From Glaciimonas sp. CA11.2 (GTDB lineage: Bacteria > Pseudomonadota > Gammaproteobacteria > Burkholderiales > Burkholderiaceae_D), in NCBI RefSeq assembly GCF_034314045.1, contig NZ_JAVIWL010000001.1:1798001-1862000 (forward strand): DNA of 64,000 nt. Direction: 5' to 3'. The position numbers and the translations under genes are program-made. A model generated the notes under the pieces. That model saw nothing but the letters and a program-made list of their open reading frames with translations, was not told the origin of the DNA and did not search any database. Below, one piece after another: positions 20,548 to 54,074 of this stretch (position 1 is the stretch's first letter; the number at the start of each line of letters is the position of its first letter).

Positions 20548-21041
20548 TTATGGTTTGTTTCGCCACTTAGCCAGGCGGGCGTTGCATTCGAATTGAGGCA
20601 GCCGTGCGCCCGAGGCCAGCATCGCGTCTAAGCCATTTGCAGCCTGTCTGGCGGATATGATTAGATGTTCTACAAGACGGTCAAGTAGCCAGAGCGCGCC
20701 ATATACCTGCAAACCGTCTTGCTGAGCTTGTCGTCGCAATTGCCCATCGCCAGTCAGCAAGGGGCGACCTGTGTCTTTCGCCAGAAGGTAACACGACACG
20801 TCAGCCAGTGAACTGTTGTTTTGTTCGATGTTGAGCTCAGACAAACGTGAGATGAGCGCACTGTCCAGCACTTCTATTTGAAGGCCTTGCTCAATTACGC
20901 TTCATGATCAAAGTCGTTCAACTCAAAAAGTACAAAATCTGTGCAGCAGAGCGTGAAAGGTAATCGAAATAACACGCTCAGAAGCCCTGCATGTCTAAAA
21001 TCTATCCAAATATTTGTATCGCTAATATAAATTCGCTTCAT
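20548..21041 (-). pseudogene. PIN-domain toxin gene, frameshifted (DUF4411-like)
   Basis: Starting at ATG 21041, the first 48 codons encode the N-terminal half of a PIN domain (RIYISDTNIWIDFRHAG, with catalytic aspartates, then CTDFVLFELNDFD with the glutamate). They end at a TAA at 20895-20897. The C-terminal half continues in another frame down to 20548: VIEQGLQIEVLDSALISRL, then SLADVSCYLLAKDTG, LLTGDGQLRRQA and GALWLLDRL. A single missing base around 20895-20903 would join the two into one protein of about 164 residues. The start overlaps the stop of the regulator gene (ATGA). PIN proteins are RNases, and this one is probably inactive as read. Confidence 0.75.
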
Positions 21042-22205: not shown

Positions 22206-22235
22206 TTCACAAAATTTGGCGTGATGCTCTATACT
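22206..22235 (+). promoter_or_regulatory. Sigma-70-like promoter for the C4-like RNA
   Basis: TTCACA at 22206-22211 and TATACT at 22230-22235 are separated by 18 bases, each one or two bases from consensus. Transcription would begin near 22242, at the start of the structured region. Confidence 0.5.
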
Positions 22236-22241
22236 CCTTTA

Positions 22242-22440
22242 GTCCCTTAGAAAAAGGGGAACTGGTTTGACGACCTGACAACACAGAAGCACACAAACGG
22301 CGCAATGCCGGTTTTTTTTCGTGTGTACGTATCGTGCCTCTTTGGGCGGTGGTGGTGGGGAAGCCTTCGGGCTTGCCGGTTTTCTTTTGTGTACCGGTTC
22401 GTCAACCCTGTTATTTACCGCCCACCCGTTTGACGACGGG
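22242..22440 (+). ncRNA. Structured leader resembling the phage C4 antisense RNA
   Basis: The stretch contains nested complementarity. GGGCGGT (22344-22350) pairs with ACCGCCC (22417-22423), enclosing a perfect AAGCC-TTCG-GGCTT hairpin (22361-22374). CGGC-GCAAT-GCCG followed by eight T lies at 22298-22319. TCGTCAA (22399-22405) can pair either with TTGACGA upstream (22267-22273) or with the identical TTGACGA at 22430-22436, next to the ribosome site of the following leader ORF. In phages P1 and P7, C4 RNA represses a short ORF to which a downstream gene is translationally coupled, and the same order is seen here. Family assignment is by architecture only. Confidence 0.55.
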
Positions 22441-22470
22441 AGGTGATTAACTACACACAAAGAAAACATA

Positions 22471-22584
22471 ATGCCTAACATTACGTCTTACCCTTTCTGT
22501 TCACCCGTTATTAGACGAATTCCTAAACAGCCGCCAGACCTATCCGATATAGTCTGTCACGCCGTTGGGGAGATGTCATCATGA
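22471..22584 (+). CDS. 37-codon leader ORF coupled to the downstream gene
   Basis: An ATG at 22471 lies about 26 bases after GGGAGGTGA and opens a 37-residue frame (MPNITSYPFCSPVIRRIPK and on). Its TGA at 22582-22584 overlaps the ATG of the next gene at 22581 (ATGA). The gap to the ribosome site is longer than usual, so the exact start is uncertain. The position matches the small orfX that couples C4 RNA to its target gene in phage systems. Confidence 0.5.
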   Translation: MPNITSYPFCSPVIRRIPKQPPDLSDIVCHAVGEMSS

Positions 22585-22916
22585 CCGACGCATCCAAACC
22601 GACCCAGTCAACAGCACCCGAGCCACTCCATCAAGCATTTTCATGGTTGCCGCTGCATCACAGAGCCGATCCGCACGCGCAATTTATTGCGATGACCAAG
22701 GACGTCTGCCAAGGGCTCCAGACTTGCATTGATCTGGCGCATTTCAGCACGATGGATCGCGGCAGCGATACAACGCCGATGTTGGATGTTACTGATACGG
22801 ATCGTTTGCTGCGGCTGGCTTCCACCTCTTTACGGATGTTGGCGGATGCTGCGTCAAGCCGGATTGATGGGTTGGATAATCTAAATCGGCATGGTGTGCT
22901 GAGGACGGAAAAATAA
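22581..22916 (+). CDS. 111-residue protein of unknown function
   Basis: The family is not recognised. The protein is soluble and has no signal peptide. A proline-rich N-terminus (QSTAPEPLHQAFSWLPLHH) is followed by two likely amphipathic helices (AMTKDVCQGLQTCIDLAHF and TDRLLRLASTSLRMLADAAS). Size and helical layout recall small DUF3077/DUF6124-type proteins of pseudomonads, but I see no decisive motif. Its ATG overlaps the stop of the 37-codon leader ORF, so it should be expressed only when the leader is translated. A strong terminator begins right after the stop codon. Confidence 0.7.
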   Translation: MTDASKPTQSTAPEPLHQAFSWLPLHHRADPHAQFIAMTKDVCQGLQTCIDLAHFSTMDRGSDTTPMLDVTDTDRLLRLASTSLRMLADAASSRIDGLDNLNRHGVLRTEK

Positions 22917-22951
22917 TTGAAAAAGCCAACCGAACCGGTTGGCTTTTTCAA
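22917..22951. terminator. Bidirectional terminator
   Basis: A perfect 16-bp stem (arms 22917-22932 and 22936-22951) with a 3-base loop carries A5 on one side and T5 on the other. It can therefore end both the 111-residue protein gene and the convergent porin remnant. Confidence 0.85.
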
Positions 22952-23018
22952 TATAAACACTTACAAAATCCAGTCAAAAATTCACTAATAATCCTGGCGA
23001 ATAATGGTTGACCAATAC

Positions 23019-23698
23019 TTAGAACGAATGGCTGACGCCCGAATAGAAGGCGTTCTGATTGACGCCAACAGCGCTAGTACCTGTCTCTACAGCAAAGCTG
23101 GTGAGTGCGCTGTTGCGTACAGTACCGATACTTGCATACAGCAGAGTGCGTTTGGACAAGCTGTAGTTTGTGCCCAGCGTGAACAGGTTGGCACTGCCGC
23201 TATTTTGGTTCAGCTTGACGTGATACGCGCCAGCGATCAGGGTCAGGGCAGGTGACAACTGGTAGTTAGCGCCTAGCCAAATCTGGTTCGCCTTGTCAGG
23301 ATTGCCCGTGCTGCCGGTCATGCCGGGCGCGGATAGATTTTGATAACCGGCAAATAACTTCAGTCGGTCGATTGTGATCGTACCGCCTAGTGTCAACTCT
23401 TTTGAGAATTGAAACAGGGAAGAGTATTGGCCATTCGCGTCATTGGCGTAGTCATACATCGCGCGCAATTCATAGCTTGGCTGAATGAAAGCCAGTGAAA
23501 GACCGCCAGTGCTACCTTTTTTGGTCGAGCCAGCCACTTCACCCATGCCATACACGCCTTGGGCCGTGAAGCCGCCAATGGTTGGAGAGATGTAGTCGAT
23601 TTCGTTGTTGTAGGTTGGCCAGTTACGTCCTTTTACCAGCGTTGCCGTGCCCATTGCTTGTTGTCCACTGGAATCCAGCGTCCAGACCACATCTGCGT
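23019..23698 (-). pseudogene. Gram-negative porin, C-terminal part (split by IS21 element)
   Basis: This is the 3' portion of a Porin_4-type trimeric outer-membrane porin: YADVVWTLDSSGQQAMGTATLVKGR, many beta strands (IDRLKLFAGYQNLSA, LTLIAGAYHVKLNQ, NLFTLGTNYSLSKRTLLY) and the C-terminal phenylalanine signature YSGVSHSF needed for BAM-dependent assembly. It has no start of its own in a sensible context. The missing 5' portion lies at 26319-26745 beyond the insertion. Joining 26319 to 23698 gives an uninterrupted 368-residue reading frame. Confidence 0.92.
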
Positions 23699-23785
23699 AT
23701 TCTGGTCAACGTGACCGCTCATTCTGGCCGATCGTGACCGCTGCGCCTGCGATGTTGTTACGCGGTTAAATTGTAATGTCTGCGG

Positions 23786-24571
23786 TCACGATGGGTCGAT
23801 AGTTTTCTCCTTTTTGCTGGTTTTAGGTCGTTCTGCGCCACGCAGTGAATCGCCGGTCAGTGTCAGCCGATGATTGCGCTGCAGAATGCGGTCCAGGATG
23901 GCGTCGGCAATAGTGGCGTCGCCAATCCAGGCATGCCAATGGTCAACAGGAAGTTGACTGGTAATAATCGTCGCTCTGTTTGCCGCCCGGTCGTCAATCA
24001 TCTCCAGCAAGTCGGAACGGGTCGTGCTGTCGATCGCGCCCATGCCCCAGTCATCAAGTACCAAGACATCGATCTTGGCGAGTTGGAGCAGCCATTTCCC
24101 AAAGCTGCCGCTGCCGTGCCGGATGCGTAGTTCTTCCTGTAGACGGGGTACGCGTTGATAAACAGCAGAGTATCCGCGCCGACAGGCGTACTGTGCCAGT
24201 GCGCAGGCCAGCCACGATTTGCCAGCACCGGTCGGTCCGGTAATGAGAATGCTGTGGCCAGCACTGACCCAATCTCCCAGCGCCAGACTCATCACTTCAC
24301 GGCGGTCGATGCCACGCCCCGAGCGGGCATCAATGTCTTCAATCGCCGCTTGTGCGTATTTCAGGTGGGCGTTCTTAAGCAGGCGCAGGAGCTTGCGGTC
24401 ATTGCGGCAATGGACTTCGCGATCAACCAAGAGTGCCAGACGTTCCTCGAAACTCATCGCCGCCATACTGGCCTGCGTCAATTGTTCCTCCAGTCCGGTC
24501 GCTAAGCCATCGAGTTTTAAGGTCCGCAATTGGGCCAGAGTGGTATGCATCATCATCGTTGACATCCTCAT
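23786..24571 (-). CDS. istB: IS21-family helper ATPase IstB
   Basis: The 261-residue DnaC/IstB-type AAA+ protein has an N-terminal helical segment (TTLAQLRTLKLDGLATGLEEQ), Walker A in ITGPTGAGKSWLACALAQ, Walker B in IDVLVLDDWGMG and the IITSQLPVDHWH sensor region, ending with RGAERP. It assists IstA by selecting and remodelling target DNA. Its ATG overlaps the istA stop by 4 bases (ATGA). Full length suggests the element is active. Confidence 0.95.
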   Translation of the reverse strand: MRMSTMMMHTTLAQLRTLKLDGLATGLEEQLTQASMAAMSFEERLALLVDREVHCRNDRKLLRLLKNAHLKYAQAAIEDIDARSGRGIDRREVMSLALGDWVSAGHSILITGPTGAGKSWLACALAQYACRRGYSAVYQRVPRLQEELRIRHGSGSFGKWLLQLAKIDVLVLDDWGMGAIDSTTRSDLLEMIDDRAANRATIITSQLPVDHWHAWIGDATIADAILDRILQRNHRLTLTGDSLRGAERPKTSKKEKTIDPS

Positions 24572-26070
24572 TGATAGTAATCAGGGCCACGCACATGGGC
24601 ATGGTCAGGACTGACCCAATCGCCAACTGGGGCACACGGTGTGCGATCACGGTTATTTTTGAGAATGTCACGGACGTGGCGGTATTGGCAGGCACCGAGC
24701 TGTAAGGCCAGCATGCATCCTGCTTCAAGACGTGGCTTGCCGTAGCGCTTGGCCAATGACAGCAGACCAAGACAGGCACGGTAGCCGTGCTCGGGATGTC
24801 TGTTCTCGGCCATCAGACGCGTCACCGCCTCCGCTGTCGCCGTACCGATGGTCTGTCCCCAGTGAATCAGTCGCTGTGGCGTCCATTCCAATTGCGCACG
24901 ATGCGCCACCGGCATATGCAGGGTGTCGGTGGTGAACCCGCCTTCGCCACTGTTGCGCGGATGACTGGCGACACGTTGACCGCGATGCAGGATTTCCACT
25001 GTCGTCGCTGTCATCCGGGCTTCCAGCACCTGACCGACCAGGGCTTGCGGCACACTGTAGTGATGGCGGCCGATCTCAACGTGGTAATCGTTATGCACCC
25101 TGACAGTCTTGAAATGCGCCATCTCATAACATTGCAATGGCAAAGGCCGTAGCGCCGGGACATCGAGTTGGGCAAACGCACTGGCGCGACTACCGGGTAG
25201 CTTCTGAAACGGCTTATCGTTAAGTACGCTCAGCAGCGGTGCGATGGCGACATCGACCTCGTGGACGCTGCTAAATTGCTGATGTCGCAGACGCGCCATG
25301 ATCCAGCGCTCGACGATCTGCACTGCTGATTCGGCCTTCGCTTTATCCTGAGGATGACGCGGACGGGCTGGCAAGATGGAGGTGCCGTAGTGGCGCGCAA
25401 AATCGCGTACGGTGTCGTTACTGCGTGGTTCGTAGCGATTGGCGTCGGCGATCATAGCCTTCGGATTATCGGGAACAATCAACTGCGGTACCCCGCCGAA
25501 GAAGCGCAGCGCACGCGCTGTCGAAGTGAGCCAGTCGGCCATCGTCTCACGCGGCGTAGCACAGGCATAGGTGTAGCTCGATGCGCCCAGAGCAGCGACG
25601 AAGATGTGGGCACGGCTACCATCAGTGAGACCGATAGTCGGACCAGCATAATCAATGAACAGTTTCTCGCCAGCCCGGTGAATCTGGCGCATAGAGCGTT
25701 TGAGCTGTTTGGCAAACTGCCGGTAATTCACGCAGAACTGTGAGTAGGCATAGGTCTGGTGCTGGGCATAATCGGCACGATACTCTTCCCATAGCAACAT
25801 CAGCGTCATCCCCTTGCGCCGCAGTTCGTGATGCAGCCTGGCGTAATCTGGCTGGACATGGTCTCGGGTCCGTTCTGGCGTGACCAAAAGCCGGTGCGCC
25901 AACTCGGTGTCGTCTACATCTTGCACCGCCGACCAGTCCAAACCGGCAACGGCGGCCAGGCCGACATACTTGGTGACGACTCCTTTTGAAATCCCCAGTG
26001 CTGCGGCAATCTGCTGGTGCGATAGTTTGGCATCCAGTTTTAAACGTAATACGTCTTTTATCTTACGCAT
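24568..26070 (-). CDS. istA: IS21-family transposase IstA
   Basis: The start at 26070 (MRKIKDVLRLKLDAKLSHQQ) follows AAGGAT and gives 500 residues; the frame continues upstream without support. An N-terminal HTH (IAAALGISKGVVTKYV) is followed by the retroviral-integrase DDE core, with aspartates in KLFIDYAGPT and IVPDNPKAMI and the glutamate in KAKAESAVQIVERWI. A C-terminal beta-barrel and helical region (YHVEIGRHHYSVPQALVG) follows. It carries out strand cleavage and transfer of the element. Confidence 0.95.
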   Translation of the reverse strand: MRKIKDVLRLKLDAKLSHQQIAAALGISKGVVTKYVGLAAVAGLDWSAVQDVDDTELAHRLLVTPERTRDHVQPDYARLHHELRRKGMTLMLLWEEYRADYAQHQTYAYSQFCVNYRQFAKQLKRSMRQIHRAGEKLFIDYAGPTIGLTDGSRAHIFVAALGASSYTYACATPRETMADWLTSTARALRFFGGVPQLIVPDNPKAMIADANRYEPRSNDTVRDFARHYGTSILPARPRHPQDKAKAESAVQIVERWIMARLRHQQFSSVHEVDVAIAPLLSVLNDKPFQKLPGSRASAFAQLDVPALRPLPLQCYEMAHFKTVRVHNDYHVEIGRHHYSVPQALVGQVLEARMTATTVEILHRGQRVASHPRNSGEGGFTTDTLHMPVAHRAQLEWTPQRLIHWGQTIGTATAEAVTRLMAENRHPEHGYRACLGLLSLAKRYGKPRLEAGCMLALQLGACQYRHVRDILKNNRDRTPCAPVGDWVSPDHAHVRGPDYYQ

Positions 26071-26174
26071 AGTGATCCTTTGTACGGGCACGTTGTCTCC
26101 AGACAAACTGGAAGCGTACCCGTTCGGTTGCTCTATGCGTAACATCATCACGGTGCTGTACGACACCATTCCGG

Positions 26175-26318
26175 TATCGTGACCGATGATTCTGCTATCG
26201 TGACCGCCGATTCTGGTCGGGCTTGAAATCGGTCACGATAGACCGGAATGAGCGGTCACGATGCGCCAGAATGGTCGGTCACGATAGACCAGAATCGGTG
26301 GTCACGATCGGCCAGAAT
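26175..26318. repeat. Multiple transposase-binding repeats at the IS21 right end
   Basis: Six copies of an approximately 22-base unit lie here. Two face one way (26175-26194, 26195-26216). Four tandem copies face the other way (26228-26249, 26250-26272, 26273-26295, 26296-26318), each holding GGTCACGAT and CCAGAAT or CCGGAAT. The left end of the element has two copies (23699-23720 and 23721-23743). IS21 elements normally carry a few such repeats; this end is unusually rich. Confidence 0.8.
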
Positions 26319-26745
26319 ACCCAACATCGCTAGGAAGTGTCAGGTCACGACCAATTTTCAGAGTACCAAGGCTGCCGCTCAAACCGACTAACGAACGACG
26401 TGTCCACAGACCCGATCCACCGTTGACCGTGCCAGTGCTGCCGTCAAAGCCGTTTTCCAATTGGAACAGCGCTTTCAAACCGCCGCCCAGATCTTCGTTG
26501 CCTTGAAAGCCGAACATGCTGGTTCCCCAGACATTGCCATCAACACCCCATTTGCCGCCAACGATGGGTTTGTTGTTGGCATTGACGCTGCCGGTAAGCT
26601 GGTTACTTTGATAATTAATGCCGTCAACGACACGGCCGTAAATCGTGACGTTGGTTTGCGCTTGCGCGTTGCCAATGCAAGCACAAGCGAGTAGGCCAGC
26701 GACAACGACTGGTTTTGCCAGCAGCATTTTGAAAATTGTTTTCAT
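26319..26745 (-). pseudogene. Gram-negative porin, N-terminal part (split by IS21 element)
   Basis: AGGAGATGAA precedes the ATG at 26745. The fragment has a classical signal peptide (KPVVVAGLLACACIGNAQA, cleaved before QTNV) and the first strands of a porin (VTIYGRVVDGINYQSNQ, GFQGNEDLGGGLKALFQLENGF, RRSLVGLSGSLGTLKIGRD). The frame enters the IS after SDVGY. As it stands it would yield a truncated exported product of about 142 porin residues that cannot form a barrel. Confidence 0.92.
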
Positions 26746-27030
26746 TTCATCTCCTAGGTACAACACATGGTGTTAAACACCGATTCCGAGCTTTAAGTAA
26801 CTCGATTTTTATTGTCAATTAAATAAAATATTTCTCACCTACAAGGCTTCGTCTCATAGGAGAGTGATCAACGAACAATTAATAAAGACAGTTGATTTAT
26901 TAATTAAATGCGAATATATTACGAATCAGAAATGCGGTAAAGGACTTATCGATAAAACATAAAATATTTTTTAGATAACGTTGTTTGACGTTGCTTTCTA
27001 TCTAATTGTTTAGAACCGGAGGAGACATAA

Positions 27031-53394: not shown

Positions 53395-53674
53395 GGTGTT
53401 TCTCCTCTTTATATTTGGATGAATTGTATAGCGCTTCTGTTGTTAATATTTCATTACAATCTGTCTTTAAAAGCCCGAAGTGGAGTGACGCCGAACTTGT
53501 TGTCGCATCTTCCCGCACCGCGGCACAACTAAAGGCACACTGACATTAGCTTAACCGGTGTCAGTTAAACCTTTCAGTAACACTGGCAAACGCTATTAGA
53601 TCATCCAATAGAAACAAAGCAGCTTCAACTTGCATCTTGATAAGTCGCAACCTATACTCGGCGGGTAGCAATAG

Positions 53675-53872
53675 CTTTAGGTGTTTTGCGTGCAGTCGTG
53701 CGTAAAATTAAACGGGAAGTCGGTGCGTGCCCAGGCATTAATCCGACGCTGCCCCCGCAACGGTAAGCGAGTAAAAAGTTTGCAGTACGCCACTGTGCCA
53801 ACGCATGGGAAGGCGCGAACTTCGAAGTCTGTCAGCAGATTTCACCTCGTGAGCCCGGATACCGGCCTAAAG
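53675..53872 (+). promoter_or_regulatory. Cobalamin riboswitch
   Basis: P1 is formed by CTTTAGG (53675-53681) and CCTAAAG (53866-53872). Conserved aptamer blocks are in order: ACGGGAAGTCGGTG, CGCTGCCCCCGCAACGGTAA, CCACTGTG, GGGAAGGCG and the B12 box GAGCCCGGATACCGGCC. It lies about 200 bases upstream of cbtB. Binding of adenosylcobalamin should reduce expression of the cobalt-uptake and corrin genes downstream; no clear intrinsic terminator is seen, so translational control or Rho is possible. Confidence 0.95.
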
Positions 53873-54074
53873 TGTTATGCAGTTTGTGTCGCGGCGGGCG
53901 ATTCAGATGGATTGCCTTGCCTTCCTGTGCACCCCGTCTTGTATTTCCTCGTCTTTTGCTGTCGCGCTTTCTGCATTCTTGCTGCACCTTTATGCCTTCC
54001 TGGTCACACTCCGTTCTGGTGCGGAGGCCGTGTGCCAGTCATATCGTTGTAAGTTATAAAAAAGGAAGATCGCT

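Follow-up and report, generated by a model that had tools for sequence, protein, structure and literature searches.

In Glaciimonas sp. CA11.2 we identified a C4 antisense RNA that precedes a sequence complementary to two of its own segments, a' and b', followed by a short leader ORF and an overlapping gene for a 111-residue protein (the payload). Judged from its sequence, the locus is with good probability a C4-type cassette in which a self-matched C4 represses the leader and the coupled payload, an upstream RNA carrying copies of the same addresses (a1 and b1) may act as a decoy, and the whole descends from a satellite or prophage. Self-addressed antisense repression of leader and payload would be the most likely function. 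In the mechanism that we propose, a single promoter would give rise to a transcript that begins with an isrK-like RNA, closed by a partial terminator, and continues through the C4, the leader and the 111-aa gene. The C4 would be cut out of this long transcript, and its a' and b' segments would pair with the address copies a2 and b2 by the ribosome site of the leader, so that the leader would no longer be translated. Through the overlap of its stop with the payload start, expression of the payload would drop as well. Both addresses recur in the a1/b1 RNA, which can pair with C4 and so may bind it as a decoy and relieve the repression.

The whole stretch of DNA that was analysed (the window) is 64,000 nt long, and the elements of the cassette lie on its forward strand in the order promoter, a1/b1, terminator-like hairpin, C4 (with a' and b'), a2/b2, leader and payload. 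The putative promoter, which the initial annotation of this DNA had recognised, is sigma-70-like (TTCACA-18 nt-TATACT, 22206–22235, 10/12 matches). Four promoter-like sites occur around the locus compared to a shuffle mean of 1.5, and TATACT boxes are also seen by eye 5' of many other cassettes in the same genome. An isrK-like 5' RNA follows (22242–22320), made up of a small hairpin, the first address copy a1 (TTGACGA, 22267–22273), b1 (ACACAGAAG, 22281–22289), which complements b' with one G-U pair, and a terminator-like hairpin (stem 22298–22310 and a T run). The Rfam isrK model (RF01394) aligns to 22242–22317 with 31.5 bits, below its cut-off of 50, and c4-a1b1 (Rfam family RF03163) was not among the Rfam matches listed for this part. 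Terminator-like sites in the region number two compared to a shuffle mean of 1.2, so the hairpin is of a kind found at chance level, which counts against the proposed scheme.

The C4 RNA itself (22338–22429) is matched by the Rfam C4 model (RF01695) over its full length with 68.4 bits (E 3.6e-11; cut-off 45). The locus is therefore a member of the family that the initial annotation had named, by the test that it had suggested. Folded alone, the RNA adopts a predicted three-stem shape of -37.8 kcal/mol. The b' segment (22384–22392) lies in the loop of the third stem, and the alignment to the C4 model puts TCGTCAA (22399–22405) at a'. The target address copy a2 (TTGACGA, 22430–22436) follows inside a small CCCG...CGGG hairpin, and b2 (ACACAAAG, 22455–22462) lies directly 5' of the leader start codon. 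The a' and b' segments thus have their complements around the ribosome site of the gene that follows C4, which counts for membership in the C4 class. The leader ORF encodes 37 aa (22471–22584), and its stop overlaps, as had been noticed earlier, the start of the payload gene (22581–22916, 111 aa), here as ATGA. A terminator-like hairpin 3' of the payload (22916–22952) is listed on the minus strand and is nearly symmetric.

The initial annotation had also pointed out, with correct positions, that TCGTCAA at 22399 complements both TTGACGA copies, at 22267 and 22430. This repeat proves little by itself since TTGACGA is common in the window (20 matches compared to a shuffle mean of 9.8). The triplet rises above chance because the C4 model places TCGTCAA at a' and because cassettes with different address letters obey the same rule.

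Several further features adjoin the cassette or lie elsewhere in the window. An intact HTH plus ImmA/IrrE gene stands next to a PIN/DUF3368-like gene that is split into two frames (20548–21041, minus strand), the latter a weak match below cut-off. The toxin-antitoxin relic proposed earlier for the neighbourhood does adjoin the locus in this form, with the PIN part weak, and its presence is probably incidental. The HTH/ImmA gene was considered as a cassette part and rejected, since it was matched in just one of the four other genus genomes, at 28% identity. Within 23019–26766 on the minus strand lie a porin gene fragment (23019–23690, Pfam Porin_4) and a second porin-like fragment, and the two genes between them look by eye like an IS21-type element. 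A cobalamin riboswitch is found at 53662–53884 on the plus strand (113.1 bits).

The C4 of the window is one of many. The 5.5-Mb genome holds 23 C4 matches, 22 of them above the cut-off and dispersed over the chromosome, and the other four genomes of the genus hold 26, 9, 2 and 1. In a search of 40 genomes (this one included), C4 was found in nine, and four genomes outside the genus had one each. Across a sample of the class, at least 24 of 369 genomes (again including this one) carry any C4, the counts being lower bounds since at most 11 candidates were scored per genome. Rescanning nine of the sampled genomes gave 10, 6, 6, 4, 3, 3, 3, 2 and 2 C4 loci, and 29 of these 39 were read. In three multi-copy genomes (G313, G405 and G300; among loci L078–L107), short proteins that look helical by eye lie behind C4; those tested from G313 and G405 did not match the profile of the window protein. 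The cassettes compared below number 65, 23 from this genome and 42 from eight others. These genomic copies, together with the second address b, the isrK-like 5' part and the link to satellites, go beyond what the initial annotation had described.

The addresses covary across cassettes. We placed a' solely by its position inside C4, which was possible for 64/65 cassettes (in G027 it could not be placed by this rule). A perfect 7-nt complement of the cassette's own a' was present upstream in 57/64, downstream in 49/64 and on both sides in 45/64, and the cassettes with both-sided matches span 17 different a' sequences. When a foreign, different a' was used as a control, matches fell to 21/3760 upstream and 12/3760 downstream, and the own a' reversed, or complemented without reversal, gave 0/64. 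With a2 likewise placed by position (57/60 cassettes, the rest lacking the anchor), five variable positions were Watson-Crick in 46–49 of the 57, with several pair types each. For the second address, a complement of b' of at least 7 nt was found upstream in 48/64 and downstream in 34/64, compared to 13% and 11% for foreign b' and to 4/64 and 1/64 for reversed b'. The stems of C4 covary as well: 12 of 22 pairs show compensatory types and 97.1% of cells are paired among 61 genus sequences, as scored on the structure predicted from that same alignment. Covariation, one of the signs that the initial annotation had named, is therefore present both within C4 and between C4 and its targets.

We also ranked targets by duplex energy. 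The own target came first for 15/23 C4 RNAs of this genome, 17/26 of G004 and 9/9 of G001, and the own upstream copy for 15/23, 15/26 and 9/9, respectively. Three observations count against self-matched repression: the own target was not the best by energy in 8/23 cassettes of this genome, a2 is imperfect in 6/23, and the window copy prefers its own target by only 1 kcal/mol (-20.0 vs -19.0). Taken as a whole, the comparison supports the earlier reading of the locus, made from sequence, as C4-type regulation of a leader and payload.

The arrangement of RNA, leader and protein, which the initial annotation had proposed to look for in other genomes, recurs. A leader that starts 30–60 nt after C4 and overlaps the next start by NTGA was found in 39/60 cassettes (60 of the 61 from the genus, G002's being left out), including 15/23 in this genome. 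At L031, roughly 1 kb ahead of the window (C1:1796908-1797455), a long tract of CCCAA repeats, in frame with the payload, takes the place of the leader. A different number of repeats would alter this frame, so L031 may be phase-variable. Payloads fall into at least three sequence groups: that of the window protein, marked by an FSWLP motif; another in G001; and one of 75- to 78-aa proteins encoded directly behind C4. One C4 operon (L076, G010:C28) encodes a DUF3077 protein and then a member of the window group (61.7 bits).

The 111-aa payload matched no Pfam, PHROGs or NCBIfam family at E values up to 1, in agreement with the earlier statement that it is not an antirepressor. AlphaFold2 (91 sequences) predicts two long helices with a mean pLDDT of 86.5 and a pTM of 0.65, and searches of solved and viral structures with this model gave no fold match at E 0.001 or better. 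Payload genes show purifying selection, with a median dN/dS of 0.29 and all 39 filtered pairs below 1 (dS 0.05 to 1, at least 70 codons; drawn from 44 payloads). Twenty of the 39 pairs come from G001's other payload group, and the seven pairs from this genome have a median of 0.24. The window payload group has 22 matches in this genome, 18 of which are beside a C4 by position. The four without a C4 match count against our preferred explanation; two of them (L131 and L132) have sub-threshold isrK remnants, a third (L133) looks by eye like a degenerate C4 cassette, and the last (L134) is a payload-group fragment with no isrK- or C4-type match found.

A small gene that is preceded by an antisense RNA and shows purifying selection, in cassettes that are dispersed and multi-copy, would also fit a maintenance module of the type I toxin-antitoxin kind. 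The payload would then be harmful, C4 its antidote, and the cassette retained by addiction. That a cell-division inhibitor is also under C4 control in P1 can be counted in favour of this explanation. However, the toxins of type I systems are short membrane proteins. While the antisense part of such a system is present here, the protein, at 111 aa with two long helices predicted, is unlike them. Furthermore, payload frames stay open at L131, L132 and L133, where C4 is missing or degenerate. We therefore regard addiction as possible but improbable, and it is compatible with C4-mediated repression of leader and payload.

A relative of the cassette was found in a satellite-like element. Two C4-core patterns were searched on viral contigs; one gave no match and the second gave five. 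One of the five, L125, is an 11.3-kb contig that encodes an integrase, isrK/C4, a 109-aa protein, and then a major capsid protein, a protease, a portal and both terminase subunits. Its C4 scores 68.5 bits, its isrK 51.1 bits (above the cut-off of 50), and its 109-aa protein 70.3 bits with the window-group profile, compared to 12.3 for the best of 1800 shuffles. This protein is identical to one of Noviherbaspirillum galbum. From the gene list, we read L125 as a probable capsid-forming satellite of the cfPICI-like kind. cfPICI make their own capsids, as described in PMC11389934, and L125 is like them in its capsid, protease, portal and terminase genes; the window cassette corresponds to the RNA, leader and payload part only. 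The other four contigs also have a C4 above the cut-off. The downstream proteins of L126 and L127 did not match the window profile in a test that covered L125–L127 (L129 was left out and L128 is cut off). L125 is the sole contig of the five with a demonstrated payload homologue, which counts against satellite descent.

Homologues of the window protein also occur in runs of small genes at three loci, two on viral contigs (L042 and L043) and one in Massilia rubra (L041). The window group (34% identity) and the G001 group (37%, E 1e-21) each have homologues in the Massilia run, and the L043 protein is 35% identical to the window payload. A divergent Arc-type repressor gene was confirmed at two of the three loci (L041 and L043), and no C4 was found at any of them. 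Scanning genome contigs gave one confirmed relative, that of Massilia rubra. Phage and plasmid records held no match to the 111-aa protein, and phage records none to the 109-aa protein of L125, for which a protein search returned only itself. Searches of viral contigs gave no confirmed relative of the G001-type payload and, for the L043 and L125 proteins, only their own contigs.

Since L125 carries isrK, C4 and a payload homologue beside capsid and terminase genes, the cassettes probably descend from the immunity or early regions of satellites or prophages, reduced to the RNA, the leader and one early gene. We do not class the window locus as a P1-type immunity region, because its payload has no family match and 21/23 C4 copies in this genome have no tyrosine integrase within 35 kb. 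This distance and the purifying selection on payloads make the domestication suggested in the initial annotation plausible; it is not proven.

A less probable reading concerns the addresses. In it, satellite-derived cassettes would have spread over the chromosome in Glaciimonas and their two-part addresses would have been driven apart, so that each C4 would be insulated from the others and would possibly block invaders with the same address. Pairs that share both a' and b' number 0/614 within genomes and 5/1039 between genomes. Address uniqueness was considered as proof of selection and rejected, as label shuffles expect 0.88, 0.33 and 0.44 such pairs (P 0.37, 0.69 and 0.63). In Fisher tests of sharing within versus between genomes, p was 0.08 to 0.16 for a and b together at four identity cut-offs; for a alone it was 0.026 at 70% identity (8/102 within vs 12/59 between) and 0.35 to 0.75 at the other three. 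Among C4 scaffolds at least 90% alike, the same a' is found in 6/29 pairs within genomes and 13/61 between them.

Closely related cassettes within a genome mostly differ in address. Pairs at least 80% identical differ in a' in 16/17 cases, one of them by a single letter, although the 17 pairs are not independent and 14 come from G001. Two in G001, L045 and L048_68918, share 99% identity across a leader-payload stretch of 431 nt and have different, internally matched sets of a1, a' and a2, with 3/7 letters changed in each of the three segments. Their b1 and b' are different as well, and b2 is alike. Conversion of payloads between cassettes whose addresses are older would look the same as address turnover. 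Because payload conversion fits too and uniqueness is not significant, we keep insulation as a reading and not as a result.

Between genomes, the site occupied by L019 has no cassette in G004 (147 nt compared to 956 nt in G000), with no target-site duplication seen, and at the L025 site G001 shares no sequence upstream. Flanking genes, over short stretches, pair five cassettes of this genome with cassettes of G004; a' agrees in two pairs and differs in three. In one of the three differing pairs, a neighbouring cassette about 8 kb away (L016) shares a' and b' with the G004 cassette. The neighbouring porin is multi-copy and gives no synteny answer.

The absence of within-genome pairs sharing both addresses is also what would be expected if C4 RNAs were kept as a bank of immunities, silencing in trans any incoming satellite or prophage with the same address, with the local payload a by-product. 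A satellite-like element does carry C4 and a homologous gene. In the account given in PMC5320573, C4 confers superinfection immunity in P1/P7, where a 4-nt difference separates the two, and targeting of incoming phages is proposed for the C4 family described there. However, immunity alone would not need purifying selection on the payload, and address uniqueness does not exceed the shuffle expectation (P values above). Moreover, no invader with matching a and b was met in searches of viral contigs by two C4-core patterns and by four protein or alignment queries. Such a bank is therefore an unlikely reason for the cassettes to persist.

Self-addressed repression, our preferred reading, can be compared with known C4 and isrK systems. 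In P1 and P7 the gene order is C4-orfX-ant, and the C4 mechanism includes Rho-dependent termination. According to the description in PMC5320573, RNase P cuts out C4 (about 77 nt) in these phages, b' lies over the ribosome site, and a' pairs upstream and gives specificity. The window cassette is like P1/P7 C4 (RF01695) in its Rfam score, fold and a'/b' arrangement, and unlike it in having a payload of unassigned role that is not an antirepressor, a chromosomal location, and 23 copies with varied addresses. C4 and c4-a1b1 appear as listed motifs in PMC2864571. The Group 1 sRNAs of A. baumannii AB5075 are also similar, comprising 21 C4-like RNAs with variation concentrated in a', and the description in PMC5320573 assigns no targets to them; here, by contrast, most C4 RNAs precede a matched target and many precede a paralogous payload. 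In B. cenocepacia J2315, a transcription-start study places isrK and C4 (ncS23/ncS24) in one transcriptional unit, as we propose for the window cassette, for the one locus in its table (PMC4603805).

The closest parallel for the 5' part is IsrK/orf45/anrP of Gifsy-1 in Salmonella (RF01394), which, as described in PMC4825925, likewise has a short RNA running to a terminator, read-through and a coupled leader. There the order is isrK, terminator, orf45 and coupled anrP. Processing of the read-through transcript yields an RNA of around 80 nt, and IsrK supplied in trans increases translation of anrP 114- to 171-fold. The authors propose that IsrK binds the long mRNA directly, and they report that it still took effect in the presence of constitutive STnc1160 (PMC4825925). 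For these two reasons the decoy step of our scheme may be wrong. By analogy, the a1/b1 RNA might itself switch on translation of the long transcript, C4 being a minor by-product. We doubt this, since the isrK score at the window is 31.5 against a cut-off of 50 and the recurrent covariation joins C4 to both copies, which makes C4 the central partner. The window cassette also differs from Gifsy-1 in that its downstream gene is not an antirepressor.

Some cassette copies are truncated or have no payload (e.g. L019, L020, L029 and L032), which counts against a functional cassette. It is nevertheless quite improbable that the cassettes are decaying satellite or prophage relics without present function, as these copies and the empty site in a congener might suggest, given the purifying selection on payloads and the both-sided matched addresses in 45/64 cassettes.

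Earlier descriptions exist of C4, c4-a1b1 and isrK, and of a C4 family with 21 copies in Acinetobacter. In the open literature searched, we found no report of a Glaciimonas small RNA and, among the papers listed on C4 and satellites, no mention of C4 antisense RNAs; C4 terms were not found in two later A. baumannii interactome papers. The C4 cassette anatomy, the payload families, the satellite link and the address diversity therefore appear to be new. This one genus offers a natural library of related antisense RNAs and targets, dozens of pairs whose addresses can be read. As its members have matched upstream copies, the library makes the specificity of RNA regulators after duplication directly testable, in a many-copy bacterial RNA family tied to phage satellites.
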